Part shown: positions 18,692 to 58,755 of the stretch, piece by piece
Numbering within the stretch: the stretch's first letter is position 1
Layout: the number at the start of each line of letters is the position of its first letter
Origin: Planctomycetota bacterium
Lineage (GTDB): Bacteria > Planctomycetota > Planctomycetia > Pirellulales > PLA5
Length of the DNA stretch: 64,000 bases
Assembly: GCA_003576845.1 (NCBI GenBank)
Contig: QEVJ01000035.1
Coordinates: 1-64,000, forward strand
Direction: 5' to 3'
The notes under the pieces: generated by a model
Database searches by the model: none
The model's input: only the letters and a program-made list of their open reading frames with translations
Told to the model about the DNA's origin: nothing
Program-made: the position numbers and the translations under genes

Positions 18692-18751
18692 GTTGAGTTG
18701 GCTAATTTTTTAACGCAGAGGGCGCAGAGGTCTCGCAGAGGCCGCAGAGAA
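18692..18751 (+). repeat. CGCAGAGG-type dispersed repeat, copy 1
   Basis: GTTGAGTTGG is followed by a T-rich run and TTTTTTAACGCAGAG, then further GCGCAGAGG and CGCAGAG units. The same ordered string starts at 53907. It lies upstream of the cytochrome/WD40 gene, in the opposite orientation to that gene. Confidence 0.8.
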
Positions 18752-21978: not shown

Positions 21979-22082
21979 CAACGCAGGGGACATCGTTTTT
22001 TCCAAACGCAGAGGACGCGGAGGACGCAGAGAAGATTTGCATTCTCTGCGCTTCCTCTGCGTCCTCCGCATCCCCTGCGTTG
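21979..22082. repeat. Nested inverted repeat of the CGCAGAGG type between two genes of the module
   Basis: The outer arms are CAACGCAGGGGA (21979-21990) and TCCCCTGCGTTG (22071-22082), a perfect 12-bp match. Inside, GAGGACGC/ACGCAGAGAA units pair with TTCTCTGCG/CTCTGCGTCCTC. The whole can fold into a long hairpin in the 185-bp gap after the DUF1549 gene and before the PPC gene. Confidence 0.85.
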
Positions 22083-24999: not shown

Positions 25000-27306
25000 A
25001 TGAAACGTCTCGTCGTTCGGCTCGTCGTGCTGTCGTCGCTCGCCGTGTTGGGAATGTTTGCGATTGCCCAGGCCCAGCGGCTTTCCGCCGAGAGCGAGGG
25101 GGAATCGCCGGTCGTGGTGAGCCGGTTTTCCGCGGCCGACGACGCGGACGCCGCCGAGGCGAGCGATGTGCCCGCCGACCCGCTTGCTCGCCGCGGGGCG
25201 TTGGGTGTCGATCCGAGGGTTCGCGTGATTCGCGATAACGACGCCGTGCCGGCCGTCTATCGCGGGCGCAAGGGCGAAGGCGTGATTCCGGCTGCGCACG
25301 ACGAATCGGCCGGCGACGACGCGACCGGCGCGGGTGCAAGCGACGGCGGCAGCGAAGGCGCGACCGTCGTCGTTTCGGCGGGCGATGCTTCTGTTGATGC
25401 GACCGCCGGAGAACCGCATCCGGACGCCCCGCCGACGTCCGCGTCCGGCGCAACCAATTCAGCGCCCCGAAACTACGGCGCCGCGGCCCGCCGCTATGCC
25501 GACGAAATCCCAGCAGCCGACCATACCTCCGACCATACCTCCGACCATTCCTCCGGTCATTCCTCCGACCGAACCGCGACGACCGAGCCATCGACCGCCC
25601 GGACAACCGCTCCCGGCGTCCCTTCTCGGCCGGAAACGATCCGCGAAGCAACCGACGCAATCGACGCGGCGGTCGCCGCACGATTGGGTCGCGGCGGGCG
25701 CGAGAATCCGGCGCGAAACTCCGCCGAGGCCAAGCCCGACGTTCATACCAGCTCCGGCGAATCCACTTTGCCGCGCGCCGCCGCGCCGCGAACGCCAACG
25801 ACGACTACGCCCCGCGACACGGCCGGGCAACCGGCCACGATGCCCGCGGCCACGGCGACGCCGGTCGCGTCGCCGACGACCATCGTTCCGCAAGGCGCCG
25901 GCCCGCAAGGCACTGGCACGCCCGGCGGCCAGGACCTCGAAGGTCCGCAGTCTCCGAGCCTTGCGATCGAGAAGGCCGTGCCCGCCGAAATCCAAGTCGG
26001 AAAAACGGCGACGTTCGAGATTCGCGTGCAGAACACGGGCCGCAGCGTCGCCCGCGACTTGCAAGTCGTCGATCAGGTCCCGCAAGGCACGCGGCTGGTC
26101 AACACCGAACCGCGAGCCGATCTCGGCGAACGCGGCGAATTGATTTGGAATCTCGCGGCGTTGGAACCGGGTGCGACCGCCGTGGTGCGGGTCGAACTCG
26201 TCCCGTTGGTCGAAGGCCAAGTCGGCAGCGTGGCGCGGGTCCGGTTCGCGGCGGACGTTTCGGCCCGCACGACCGTCACGAAGCCGCAATTGTCGATCGA
26301 AGTCATCGGCGACGAGCGGGTGATGATCGGCGATGAAGCGGTGCTGGTGATCACGGTGGCGAATCCCGGCAGCGGCGAAGCGACCGACGTCATTTTGGAA
26401 GCGGACATTCCGGCGAACTTCAAGCATCCCGCCGGGAGCGAGCTCGAGTTCGAAGTCGGCACGTTGCGTCCGAACGAATCGCGGCGGCTGGAGCTTAACC
26501 TGGCGGCGATCAAGCAAGGATCGGCCGCGCCGACGCTCGTTGTCCGTGCGGCGGGGGTGCCTGCGGTGGAAAAGACGATGCCGCTCGAAGTCGTCGCTCC
26601 GAAGCTGGAAGTCGGCGTGGAAGGGCCGAAGCGGCGGTTCCTCGACCGCAAATCAACGCACGTGCTGACGGTGTCCAACCCCGGCACCGCGGCGGCGACC
26701 GACGTCGAACTCGTCGCGTATTTGCCGCCCGGCATGAAGTTCGTGGAAGCCAATAACCAGGGCACATACGACGCGCGGCAGCACGCGGTGTACTGGAGCC
26801 TCGCCGAACTTCCCGCCCAACGCAGCGGCGATGTGCAGCTCGTTACGCTGCCCACGGAGTCCGGCGAACAGGTGCTCAAGGTCGAGGGCCGCGCCACGCG
26901 GGGACTGGCCGACGAATACGTCGAGACGATCTCGGTCGAAGGCGTCGCGGCGTTGTCGTTCCAGATTTCGGATCTCGCCGATCCGCTGGCGGTCGGCGGT
27001 CAGGCGAGCTACGAAGTCCGCGTCATAAACACGGGTTCGAAGTCGGCGAGTAATGTCCAAGTCGTCGCCGTGCTCCCGGCGGAGATGGCCGCCATCGACG
27101 CCAAAGGCCCGACGGGTTCGAGCCTCAAGGACGGGAAGATCGTGTTTCAACCGATCAGCCGCCTCGCGCCCAAGGAGCAGCAGGTCTTTCAATTCCGCGC
27201 CGAAGCGACCAAGGCCGGAGACCTCCGCGTGCGCGTGCAACTGACGAGCGACGAGATCACGACGCCGATCACGCAGGAAGAAAGCACGCGGGTGTTTGCC
27301 GATTGA
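25000..27306 (+). CDS. Secreted DUF11/CARDB-type repeat protein
   Basis: The 768-residue protein starts 'MKRLVVRLVVLSSLAVLGMFAIAQAQ', a signal peptide. Residues 30-325 are low complexity, rich in Ala, Thr, Pro and Asp, with a 'HTSDHTSDHSSGHSSD' repeat. From about 330 on there are four Ig-like DUF11 units, each with a phrase such as 'IQVGKTATFEIRVQNTGRSVARDLQVVDQVPQGTRLV' or 'VGGQASYEVRVINTGSKSASNVQVVAVLPAEM'. DUF11 proteins are large planctomycete surface proteins without known enzymatic role. ATG 25000 is chosen over the upstream in-frame 24892 for the signal peptide and the AAGGATCC site before it. Confidence 0.85.
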   Translation: MKRLVVRLVVLSSLAVLGMFAIAQAQRLSAESEGESPVVVSRFSAADDADAAEASDVPADPLARRGALGVDPRVRVIRDNDAVPAVYRGRKGEGVIPAAHDESAGDDATGAGASDGGSEGATVVVSAGDASVDATAGEPHPDAPPTSASGATNSAPRNYGAAARRYADEIPAADHTSDHTSDHSSGHSSDRTATTEPSTARTTAPGVPSRPETIREATDAIDAAVAARLGRGGRENPARNSAEAKPDVHTSSGESTLPRAAAPRTPTTTTPRDTAGQPATMPAATATPVASPTTIVPQGAGPQGTGTPGGQDLEGPQSPSLAIEKAVPAEIQVGKTATFEIRVQNTGRSVARDLQVVDQVPQGTRLVNTEPRADLGERGELIWNLAALEPGATAVVRVELVPLVEGQVGSVARVRFAADVSARTTVTKPQLSIEVIGDERVMIGDEAVLVITVANPGSGEATDVILEADIPANFKHPAGSELEFEVGTLRPNESRRLELNLAAIKQGSAAPTLVVRAAGVPAVEKTMPLEVVAPKLEVGVEGPKRRFLDRKSTHVLTVSNPGTAAATDVELVAYLPPGMKFVEANNQGTYDARQHAVYWSLAELPAQRSGDVQLVTLPTESGEQVLKVEGRATRGLADEYVETISVEGVAALSFQISDLADPLAVGGQASYEVRVINTGSKSASNVQVVAVLPAEMAAIDAKGPTGSSLKDGKIVFQPISRLAPKEQQVFQFRAEATKAGDLRVRVQLTSDEITTPITQEESTRVFAD
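25519..25566 (+). repeat. Four 12-bp tandem repeats within the DUF11-type gene
   Basis: Units GACCATACCTCC (twice), GACCATTCCTCC and GGTCATTCCTCC follow one another and encode the HTSD/HSSG run. Confidence 0.85.
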
Positions 27307-27336: not shown

Positions 27337-27368
27337 AATTTAGCCCCCGGTGAATACACCGGGGGCAA
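27337..27368 (+). repeat. 32-nt palindromic element between the DUF11-type gene and the lipoprotein
   Basis: The stem GCCCCCGGTG (27343-27352) pairs with CACCGGGGGC (27357-27366) around an AATA loop. With its AATTTA and AA flanks it matches the reverse complement of 35544-35575 at 31 of 32 positions. It has no T tail, so it is not a standard terminator. Confidence 0.9.
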
Positions 27369-27393: not shown

Positions 27394-28053
27394 ATGCTCT
27401 CAGGACCCCAACTACGCGTCGCCGTTGCGAGCCTCGCCGCCGTGTGCTTTTGCGGGTGCCCTTGGTCGCGGTGGGCGCTCAAGGATCCGGACTACGCCGC
27501 CAAATACGACGCGCCGCCCGAGGCGCTCGATGTCGCCACACAGGCGAAGCAGTCGGTCGACGCCCGATTCGTCGAAGGTAAATCGGGTTGGTACGTCGCC
27601 GGCGCCGGGCACGCGGACCCGGACGCGGCCGGCGGCGAAATCGGCGGTTTCGTGTATCCGCAATCGTGGCTGTCGGCGCATGCCGGCCTGGCGCTTTTGG
27701 GCGGAACCGGCGCGGACGACGTGTTCGTTGGCCTCAACGGCGGCCTGCGCATTCAACCGCCGAGCCGACTCGCTCCGTTCGCGGGCGTCGGCATGTTCCA
27801 CGGTTACAGCGAGCACGAGTATCTCGCCCAGCGCGACTGGCGCGACAACGATTCCGACGGCAGCATCGACGAACTCGGCGAAACGGGAACGGAGTACGGC
27901 TGGCTCTCGGCCGTTTACCCGGAGATCGGCGTCCACTACTGGCTTAATTCGAGCGTCCGTGCGACGGCGAGCGGCGCGTACTACGTGACGACCGAGGGCC
28001 GCGACAGCGACTTCTGGTTCTACGGGGCGTCGCTATCGTTCTTGCAGAATTGA
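27394..28053 (+). CDS. Predicted envelope protein (lipoprotein signal, outer-membrane-like)
   Basis: The 219-residue protein has a hydrophobic N-terminus 'VAVASLAAVCFCGCPWS' with cysteines that fit a lipobox. The remainder alternates polar and hydrophobic residues, with many Gly and aromatic residues ('WYVAGAGHADPDAAGGEIGGFVYP', 'AFAG'-like glycine strands, terminal 'WFYGASLSFLQN'), as in small outer-membrane barrels. The C-terminal aromatic-ending strand supports this. No family name can be given. It follows the DUF11 gene on the same strand after the palindromic repeat. Confidence 0.65.
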   Translation: MLSGPQLRVAVASLAAVCFCGCPWSRWALKDPDYAAKYDAPPEALDVATQAKQSVDARFVEGKSGWYVAGAGHADPDAAGGEIGGFVYPQSWLSAHAGLALLGGTGADDVFVGLNGGLRIQPPSRLAPFAGVGMFHGYSEHEYLAQRDWRDNDSDGSIDELGETGTEYGWLSAVYPEIGVHYWLNSSVRATASGAYYVTTEGRDSDFWFYGASLSFLQN

Positions 28054-35264: not shown

Positions 35265-35963
35265 ATGCCTTCATCCCCAACCTCTAGCCCCCGGTCCCGC
35301 GTCCCGGTTCTCGTGCTGGCGGTTACCGGCGCGAGCGGGGCTTTGTATGCGCGGCGGCTGCTCGGCGTGTTGCTCGGCGCGGGGTGCGAAGTGCATCTTT
35401 CGATCAGTCCGGCGGGGCGGGCGGTGATTGCGCACGAGTTGGGCATCGAGTTGGATTTGGAGTCGTTCGATGCGGCACGGTTGCTTGGCGGCGGGGCGCG
35501 GGCGGCGGACGGGAACGCGAGCGGCGATGCGGTGGAGAGCACATTGCCCCCGGTGTGTTCACCGGGGGCTAAATTGGTTTATCACCACCATTGCGACTTG
35601 ATGGCGCCGATCGCTAGCGGGTCGTTTCTGACGAATGGGATGGTGATTTGTCCCTGCTCCGGCGGAACGTTGAGCGCCGTCGTGCACGGCGCGTCGACGG
35701 GATTGATTCATCGCGCTGCCGACGTGCACCTCAAGGAGCGGCGAAAGCTGATTCTCGTCCCGCGCGAAACGCCGCTGTCGCTCGTGCAGCTCGACAACAT
35801 GCGGCGGGCGGCCGAGGTGGGCGCGATCGTGCTGCCGGCGTCACCGGGGTTCTATCACGAACCGCAGTCGATTGAGGATCTAGTCGATTTCGTCGTGGCG
35901 CGGATTTGCGATCAGCTCGGCATCGCGCATCGGTTGATGCGGCGGTGGGGAGCGATAGAATGA
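35265..35963 (+). CDS. ubiX: Flavin prenyltransferase UbiX with an in-frame palindrome insert
   Basis: The 232-residue protein has the UbiX N-terminus 'VLAVTGASGALYARRLLGVLL' (flavin-binding), 'MAPIASGSFLTNGMVICPCSGGTLSAVVHGAS' and 'RAADVHLKERRKLILVPRETPLSLVQLDNMRRAAEVGA'. UbiX adds dimethylallyl to FMN to make the prenyl-FMN cofactor of UbiD decarboxylases. Compared with the family it carries an extra loop, 'GGGARAADGNASGDAVESTLPPVCSPGAKLVY', before 'HHHCDLMAPIASGS'. The end of this insert is translated from the 35544-35575 palindrome. No ubiD gene is in the window. The 5' end 'MPSSPTSSPRSRVPVLVLAV' is short and Ser/Pro-rich. Confidence 0.9.
   Translation: MPSSPTSSPRSRVPVLVLAVTGASGALYARRLLGVLLGAGCEVHLSISPAGRAVIAHELGIELDLESFDAARLLGGGARAADGNASGDAVESTLPPVCSPGAKLVYHHHCDLMAPIASGSFLTNGMVICPCSGGTLSAVVHGASTGLIHRAADVHLKERRKLILVPRETPLSLVQLDNMRRAAEVGAIVLPASPGFYHEPQSIEDLVDFVVARICDQLGIAHRLMRRWGAIE
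35544..35575 (-). repeat. 32-nt palindromic element inside ubiX, inverted twin of 27337-27368
   Basis: The stem is GCCCCCGGTG (35546-35555) and CACCGGGGGC (35560-35569) with a TGTT loop. Its reverse complement matches 27337-27368 at 31 of 32 positions. The length and frame leave ubiX open. Confidence 0.9.
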
Positions 35964-41739: not shown

Positions 41740-42002
41740 CGTGACGAGCACGCCAAGGTGGCGGGGAATAAGGCGCTCAATGCCGACACGCTCTTGGTCG
41801 ACGGTCGTCGCTGGCGGAAGCGGAGCGAGTATCGGTAAGCCCACTTGGGGCAACCTTTGTGCCACGCTGCCGCTCCCGCGCGACGGGCCGAAAACCGGTT
41901 GAATTCCGCTGAAGGCGGCAGTATCGCGAATCCGCGACGTTGCGAAATGGCAACGCGGCAGGCCATTAGGCGAGGCGATTCGGCAACATCGCGCGTTTCC
42001 CT

Positions 42003-42030
42003 GAATCCCGAATCCCGAATCCCGAATCCC
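42003..42030 (+). repeat. Four GAATCCC tandem units next to the 42032-42478 gene
   Basis: Four exact GAATCCC units in a row, directly beside the TAG stop codon (minus strand, bases 42032-42034) of the neighbouring gene. It is part of the dispersed repeat family also at 701-772, 42479-42528 and 58682-58755. Confidence 0.9.
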
Positions 42031-42031
42031 G

Positions 42032-42478
42032 CTATCCAATCTCGCGCAAAAAGCTCGCCAACATGGCGTCGAACACGGCTTTGATTTCGGCCAGTTCGCG
42101 ATCTTCGGATTGATAGTACACGACGTAAGTCGCCCGCGGCGTGTGGAGCGCGCGGACGGACGCGGTATTGGTGAGGTCGAGATAGATGAAGTTCATGTCG
42201 TAGCCGACGAGGTCCTGGCCTTCGACGGCTTCGGTCACTGTGGCCACGTCCATATCCTGATACTCGCCGCGGAGCGCGCGCATGACTTCGGCGGCCAGAT
42301 CGGTCGGTGTTTGGTTTGGCGGATAGATCGCCAGCGACCAGAACGCGCCGCCGGGACTGTAAATCGAGACGCTGTTTTGCTTCTCGTCGGGGCCGGCTTC
42401 GTCGTCCGTGCCGTCGTCGAGCGTCCAGTTCTCTGGATACAGGAAGCGGACGCCGAGAGAGTCGTAAACGGCGGGCAT
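42032..42478 (-). CDS. Conserved hypothetical protein flanked by dispersed repeats
   Basis: The 148-residue protein 'MPAVYDSLGVRFLYPENWTLDDG' starts like proteins that describe a 'YPENW' motif, common in small PsbP/DUF1795-like domains. It is alpha/beta, with 'GGAFWSLAIYPP' and 'VGYDMNFIYLDLTN'. There is no signal peptide. The stop touches the GAATCCC array and the start is next to another copy of the same repeat family on the opposite side. Its function is unknown. Confidence 0.65.
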   Translation of the reverse strand: MPAVYDSLGVRFLYPENWTLDDGTDDEAGPDEKQNSVSIYSPGGAFWSLAIYPPNQTPTDLAAEVMRALRGEYQDMDVATVTEAVEGQDLVGYDMNFIYLDLTNTASVRALHTPRATYVVYYQSEDRELAEIKAVFDAMLASFLREIG

Positions 42479-44875: not shown

Positions 44876-45086
44876 AAAGACTCCTGTCCCCTTATTTCGG
44901 CCCCCCCACGGCGTCGCATTGCCGGTCGAAATGGAGAGATTGGTGGGCACAGCCCACCCTAGATGAATTCATCCGTGCCCATCGGTGTCATCCGTGGTTG
45001 GGCGTACCACGGATTTCACGGATGGGCACGGATTGGGAGCGGACTTCGGCGGGGACGAAATAAAGACTCCCGTCCCCTTATTTCGG
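44876..45086. repeat. Composite repeat region: two GTCCCCTTATTTCGG copies around hairpins
   Basis: Copies AAAGACTCCTGTCCCC/TTATTTCGG (44876-44900) and AAAGACTCCCGTCCCC/TTATTTCGG (45062-45086) differ at one base. Between them lie GGTGGGC-ACA-GCCCACC (44942-44958) and a nested hairpin with arms ATCCGTGCCCAT (44971-44982) and ATGGGCACGGAT (45022-45033), inner ATCCGTGGT/ACCACGGAT. Confidence 0.9.
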
Positions 45087-53906: not shown

Positions 53907-53966
53907 GTTGAGTTGGTTACTTTTTTAACGCAGAGGCCGCGGAGGTTGCGCAGAGGGCGCAGAGAA
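53907..53966 (+). repeat. CGCAGAGG-type dispersed repeat, copy 2
   Basis: GTTGAGTTGG followed by TTTTTTAACGCAGAG and GCGCAGAGG-type units, as at 18692-18751. It lies upstream of the DUF1080 gene. Confidence 0.8.
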
Positions 53967-58681: not shown

Positions 58682-58755
58682 TGAATCCCCGAATGCCGAA
58701 TCCCGAATCCCGACGTCCGCATTCCCCGACCCCCGACCCCCGACCAACGATCCCC
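58682..58755 (+). repeat. GAATCCC/CCCGACC dispersed repeat supplying the RuvX N-terminus
   Basis: It reads GAATCCCCGAATGCCGAATC, then GACCCCCGACCCCCGACC, in the same order as 701-772. It contains the possible start codons GTG 58681 and ATG 58693. Confidence 0.85.

Follow-up and report, generated by a model that had tools for sequence, protein, structure and literature searches.

A REP/REPIN-type hairpin within the ubiX reading frame of a planctomycete: a probable mobile element tolerated in a variable loop

How a palindrome can lie inside the reading frame of a conserved enzyme and leave the protein whole is the question raised by ubiX in the window analysed here, a stretch of 64,000 nucleotides from a Planctomycetota bacterium. 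The original prediction was that a 32-nt palindrome in this gene has an inverted twin 8 kb away with the same perfect stem, that the twin lies between genes, and that both are copies of a REP- or MITE-like element. The twin exists as described: positions 35544-35575 are identical to the reverse complement of 27337-27368 at 31 of 32 positions, a repeat search extends the match to 33 nt (97%), the perfect 10-bp stem GCCCCCGGTG/CACCGGGGGC is present in both copies, and the second copy is indeed intergenic (Table 1). The window has 4 occurrences of the stem's 10-mer where 0.23 would be expected, and 0 of 100 shuffles reached 4; the near-palindrome pattern gives 2 matches against 0.00 expected. When the search suggested for the 32-mer was extended to the genome (7.05 Mb in 289 contigs), further copies were found: the exact 24-nt core GCCCCCGGTG-N4-CACCGGGGGC is present 65 times, its reversed control 0 times, and a longer pattern, with 3 mismatches allowed, returned 98 rows, one of which is a second reading of the same site. 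With 4 mismatches allowed, about 98 copies are found in the fetched loci, and 48 of these are identical to the 30-nt consensus. Coincidence, both for the palindrome and for its match 8 kb away, has no favourable evidence; it is ruled out by this copy number and retains next to no probability.

Table 1. Positions in the window of ubiX, the two copies of the hairpin and the associated segments
Feature	Position	Strand	Description
ubiX (flavin prenyltransferase), 232 aa	35265..35963	+	ORF; Pfam Flavoprotein 7.1e-40; predicted model
Twin copy	27337..27368	+ (element orientation plus)	Intergenic; stop codon at 27304-27306, ATG at 27394
Hairpin core	35544..35573	- (element orientation minus)	TTTAGCCCCCGGTGAACACACCGGGGGCAA; encodes part of TLPPVCSPGAKLV, residues 93-105
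Degenerate 3' tail of the ubiX copy	35516..35543	-	TGTGCTCTCCACCGCA... in element orientation; end of tail approximate
Segment holding the net 60-nt gain	35496..35580	+	Pairwise nucleotide and protein alignment with the same-genus ubiX; approximate bounds

The copies in this genome are a near-identical sequence set in unrelated flanks, with the consensus CA-TTTA-GCCCCCGGTG-AAYA-CACCGGGGGC-AA-T. When folded, it forms a stem that has CATT/AATG at its foot and a two-nucleotide TA bulge (the 5' half of the foot reads YCATTTA and the 3' half AAT), and the core in ubiX folds with the same TA bulge at -15.3 kcal/mol (z -6.3). Conservation stops 2-3 nt beyond the hairpin on the left, and on the right a degenerate tail can be traced for about 25 nt, the first 16 nt of which in the ubiX copy are identical to the tail of the copy at locus L078. 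Ten inverted pairs stand head-to-head with 59-125 nt between their cores, and most copies are single. We therefore see a short dispersed palindrome in about 98 copies, few of them with coding sequence on both sides, which bears out the predicted REP- or MITE-like nature in its REP-/REPIN-like form. No autonomous parent was evident between inverted copies 0.3-3 kb apart in the genome's copy list. Copies are unevenly spread, with about 16, including six head-to-head pairs, on the 65-kb contig C203 (L050, L051, L052), far above the genome average; partial left arms similar to TTAGCCCCCGG lie about 20 nt upstream of full copies at L056, L065, L080, L082 and L105, and half-units are repeated in tandem at L147. 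The window contains other repeats as well: a dispersed repeat of AACGCAGAGG...GCGCAGAG units at 22005-22081, 18692-18751 and 53907-53966, once as an inverted pair; an inverted repeat ATCCGTGCCCATCGGTGTCATCCGTGGT / ACCACGGATTTCACGGATGGGCACGGAT at 44971-45033, 89% complementary with a 7-nt spacer; and low-complexity tracts of the CCCGAATCCCGAATCCC / CCCCGACCCCCGA type at 704-776, 41998-42037 and 58686-58739.

Comparison of the host gene with ubiX of a same-genus relative showed a net excess of 60 nt, or 20 codons, in frame. The claim that the element adds part of an in-frame loop is thus correct, as it encodes part of TLPPVCSPGAKLV within this gain. The insertion is larger than the 32 nt of the palindrome, since the element has a degenerate 3' tail. 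Because the tail of the ubiX copy blends into the flanking sequence, part of the 60-nt gain could be ordinary loop drift. The affected segment, which runs from the DLxxF helix to the YHHxxDLMAPIASGS motif, differs greatly in length among 30 UbiX relatives of the order, and the alignment of relatives called for in the original prediction shows that the loop is not common to all of them, the same-genus protein being without it. The prediction had named a lack of further copies together with the same loop in all relatives as signs of a chance palindrome, and we found neither. In the predicted model, residues 77-89 have a pLDDT below 50, the next block is uncertain and most of the core exceeds 90, so the loop segment is predicted to be disordered. 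The protein was also expected to keep its catalytic segments, and the Pfam match, the invariant columns and residues of the family, all kept, and the alignment of the model to solved UbiX structures (4zav and others) agree on this; as far as sequence and model can tell, fold and conserved motifs are intact.

Frame survival needs no special trick, since three of the six frames of the element are stop-free, in 95-98 of the 98 copies. Two further in-frame copies were found in recognisable genes: that at L123 immediately precedes the kinase domain of a Ser/Thr kinase, and that at L072 lies upstream of a Secretin_N domain, both outside recognised domains, as in ubiX. A copy was counted as coding when it was flanked by coding signal on each side and accompanied by a Pfam domain, and by this rule three genes among about 98 copies are secure, a small minority; four further copies (L090, L093, L073 and L110) may be coding and fall below this standard, the codon-model gene calls on 1-kb loci being crude. 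If a typical coding density is assumed, random insertion into a genome so rich in genes would give more coding copies than are seen, and the loss of insertions that fell in closed frames or folded segments would explain their rarity. The original prediction called such an entry into a coding frame unusual. The in-frame copy in ubiX is real, but it has precedents in the REPs recorded within genes (PMC3733652) and in the Rickettsia palindromic elements (RPEs), which enter frames often (PMC10969869), and three open frames make it less surprising.

The intergenic position of most copies would also suit RNA regulatory structures (terminators, mRNA stabilisers or translation control) selected at each site, with the ubiX copy regulating ubiX. 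Several copies lie a short way from a start codon, as at L059 ahead of its argS-like gene; at L121 a sulfotransferase-like gene upstream of truA ends at a stop codon provided by the copy; and the stems covary, as described below. However, regulation selected site by site does not account well for near-identical copies in unrelated flanks or for their absence from the same-genus relative; the flanks of the copies have no U-tract after the stem, no Rfam family matches (the scan of the window returned a tRNA only), so that neither an intrinsic terminator nor a known structured RNA is recognised, and a mid-gene copy makes a poor terminator. We consider this explanation improbable as an origin of the family, though it is partly compatible with a REP-type element, given that REPs may be mobile first and gain RNA roles later.

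The distribution of the hairpin is uneven. The exact core is absent from the sampled same-genus genome, and among 55 other relatives a single core was found in one only, with different framing. The exact 26-mer is absent from 391 other sampled Planctomycetota, and is present in eleven stretches of seven Planctomycetota MAGs from another collection, where copies are often paired and the interior is conserved. When four stem positions per side were left free, the pattern turned up in seven more genomes out of 395 of the order, with stems that differ and yet are complementary in nearly every listed copy. The covariation score was 0.191 against 0.050 for shuffles, 0 of 500 of which scored as high, over 34 distinct variants gathered from the matches of the genome comparisons. 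Judging from these variants, the hairpin fold is conserved, and some relatives keep the framing with compensatory changes in the stem. Pairs are regular in other genomes, and in G488, G624 and G480 they consist of two hairpins with unlike stems. At L098, L144 and L210-L227 the paired hairpins regularly have two stems unable to pair with each other, L144 belonging to a MAG titled Phycisphaeraceae.

Many of the pairs in G480 and G624 lie within a larger unit (L240, L242, L245, L246) that is about 135 nt long, is bounded by the outer inverted repeats AGAACGTGTTTTGAAAT / GAGCGTGTCC and has apparent TTA-type flanks; it resembles an IS5-type MITE with a nested REPIN. Such units raise the possibility that the hairpin is a decayed piece of a larger IS5-like MITE and moves only within it. 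The copies of the present genome, however, have no outer repeats, their left conservation ending so close to the hairpin, and the copies of G488 and other MAGs have none either, which makes this origin improbable.

An exact empty site was not recovered from the same-genus genome (at ubiX, the twin site, the kinase and argS) or from the comparison of G624 with G480; the spacers compared were too diverged or occupied by another repeat. At the orthologous gene pair of the twin site, the same-genus relative has a 79-nt spacer without the element, and where L219 of G624 was set against L234 of G480, the orthologous spacer in G480 holds a different inverted repeat (GGGTGGGTCGAGCGCAGCGAGCCCCACC...). 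As for a mobilising enzyme, Y1_Tnp genes were searched for in this genome and 11 others, three of these being duplicates: this genome has 4, other copy-bearing genomes searched have them too, and the same-genus genome yielded none. No copy lies near 64 Y1/RAYT locus records of this and other genomes (about 52 distinct, and part of all matches) in fetched flanks of up to about 1.5 kb. A linkage to RAYT was rejected, as a RAYT (Y1_Tnp) gene flanked by the repeat was not seen at any fetched locus.

The hairpins of REP and IS200/IS605 elements are recognised as folded strands (PMC6006769). Here the strand CATTTA-GCCCCCGGTG-AAYA-CACCGGGGGC-AATG folds into a bulged stem-loop, and by analogy this fold would be recognised by a putative transposase acting in trans; the shared hairpin, the bulge, the compensatory changes and the uneven presence all fit a non-autonomous mobile element recognised by its fold. 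The hairpin has reached about 98 sites in this genome, presumably after the split from the same-genus relative, and one copy with its tail would have entered ubiX at a loop that differs in length between members of the order. With a gain whose net length is divisible by three and a frame free of stops, the protein would have stayed whole; insertions that hit closed frames or folded segments would not have persisted. Since the fold and motifs of UbiX are intact, the insertion was most likely tolerated as a nearly neutral change. We put the probability of this account, in which a non-autonomous mobile hairpin of REP/REPIN type has its ubiX copy tolerated in a variable loop, at roughly 85%. A wider proposal is offered tentatively, and we think it rather doubtful: that the element belongs to an unnamed planctomycete hairpin superfamily, TTAGCC-N4-GTG-AAYA-CAC-N4'-GGCAA, with freely covarying stems and unlike-stem pairs, which would be moved by an enzyme other than the classical RAYT and would now and then add short peptides to loops or linkers of host proteins.

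Among known systems, the element is close in form to the REP, BIME and REPIN repeats with their RAYT (TnpA-REP) transposases (PMC3733652, PMC6006769), being a palindrome in the range of 20-40 nt, high in copy number, mostly intergenic, single or head-to-head, uneven among species and in some copies located in genes or giving stop codons. Unlike them, it has no GTAG/GTGG or CGTC tag at the foot of the hairpin and no RAYT gene beside any copy in the loci examined, and its paired hairpins often have two different stems. REPs inside genes have been recorded in several species, REPs of the GTAG and CGTC families are known to donate stop codons, and tolerated inserts may sit in flexible linkers or loops (PMC3733652). 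The intragenic GTAG REPs of Opitutus terrae, also a member of the PVC superphylum, are thought to be tolerated in this way, but they belong to another repeat family with another tag and lie in other genes, such as uvrA (PMC3733652). The atypical repeats of the class 3 Y1 transposases of Planctomycetes share the phylum, atypical secondary structures and high copy number; their foot is CnGA, whereas that of the present element is TTTA, with no linked transposase gene found (PMC6006769). RPEs, which according to PMC10969869 (citing Ogata 2000 and 2002) frequently insert into reading frames, are likewise mobile palindromes tolerated in frame in unrelated genes, but at about 150 bp they are longer and often in coding frames, while coding copies are rare here. 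Our search of the literature on REPs and Planctomycetes, a weak test of limited coverage, found no description of the family.

In-frame insertion of mobile palindromes is thus already known and is not a new phenomenon, and it is as a variant that this family looks new, untagged, unlinked to RAYT in the loci examined and with pairs of unlike stems. To the REP/REPIN world it contributes, in Planctomycetota, a palindrome family whose stems covary and which apparently has no tag. The present genome and its same-genus relative provide a case with and without the insertion, in which a probable mobile repeat lengthens the loop of a conserved enzyme, and the genomes with many copies and those with none form a set in which the mobilising enzyme may be sought.
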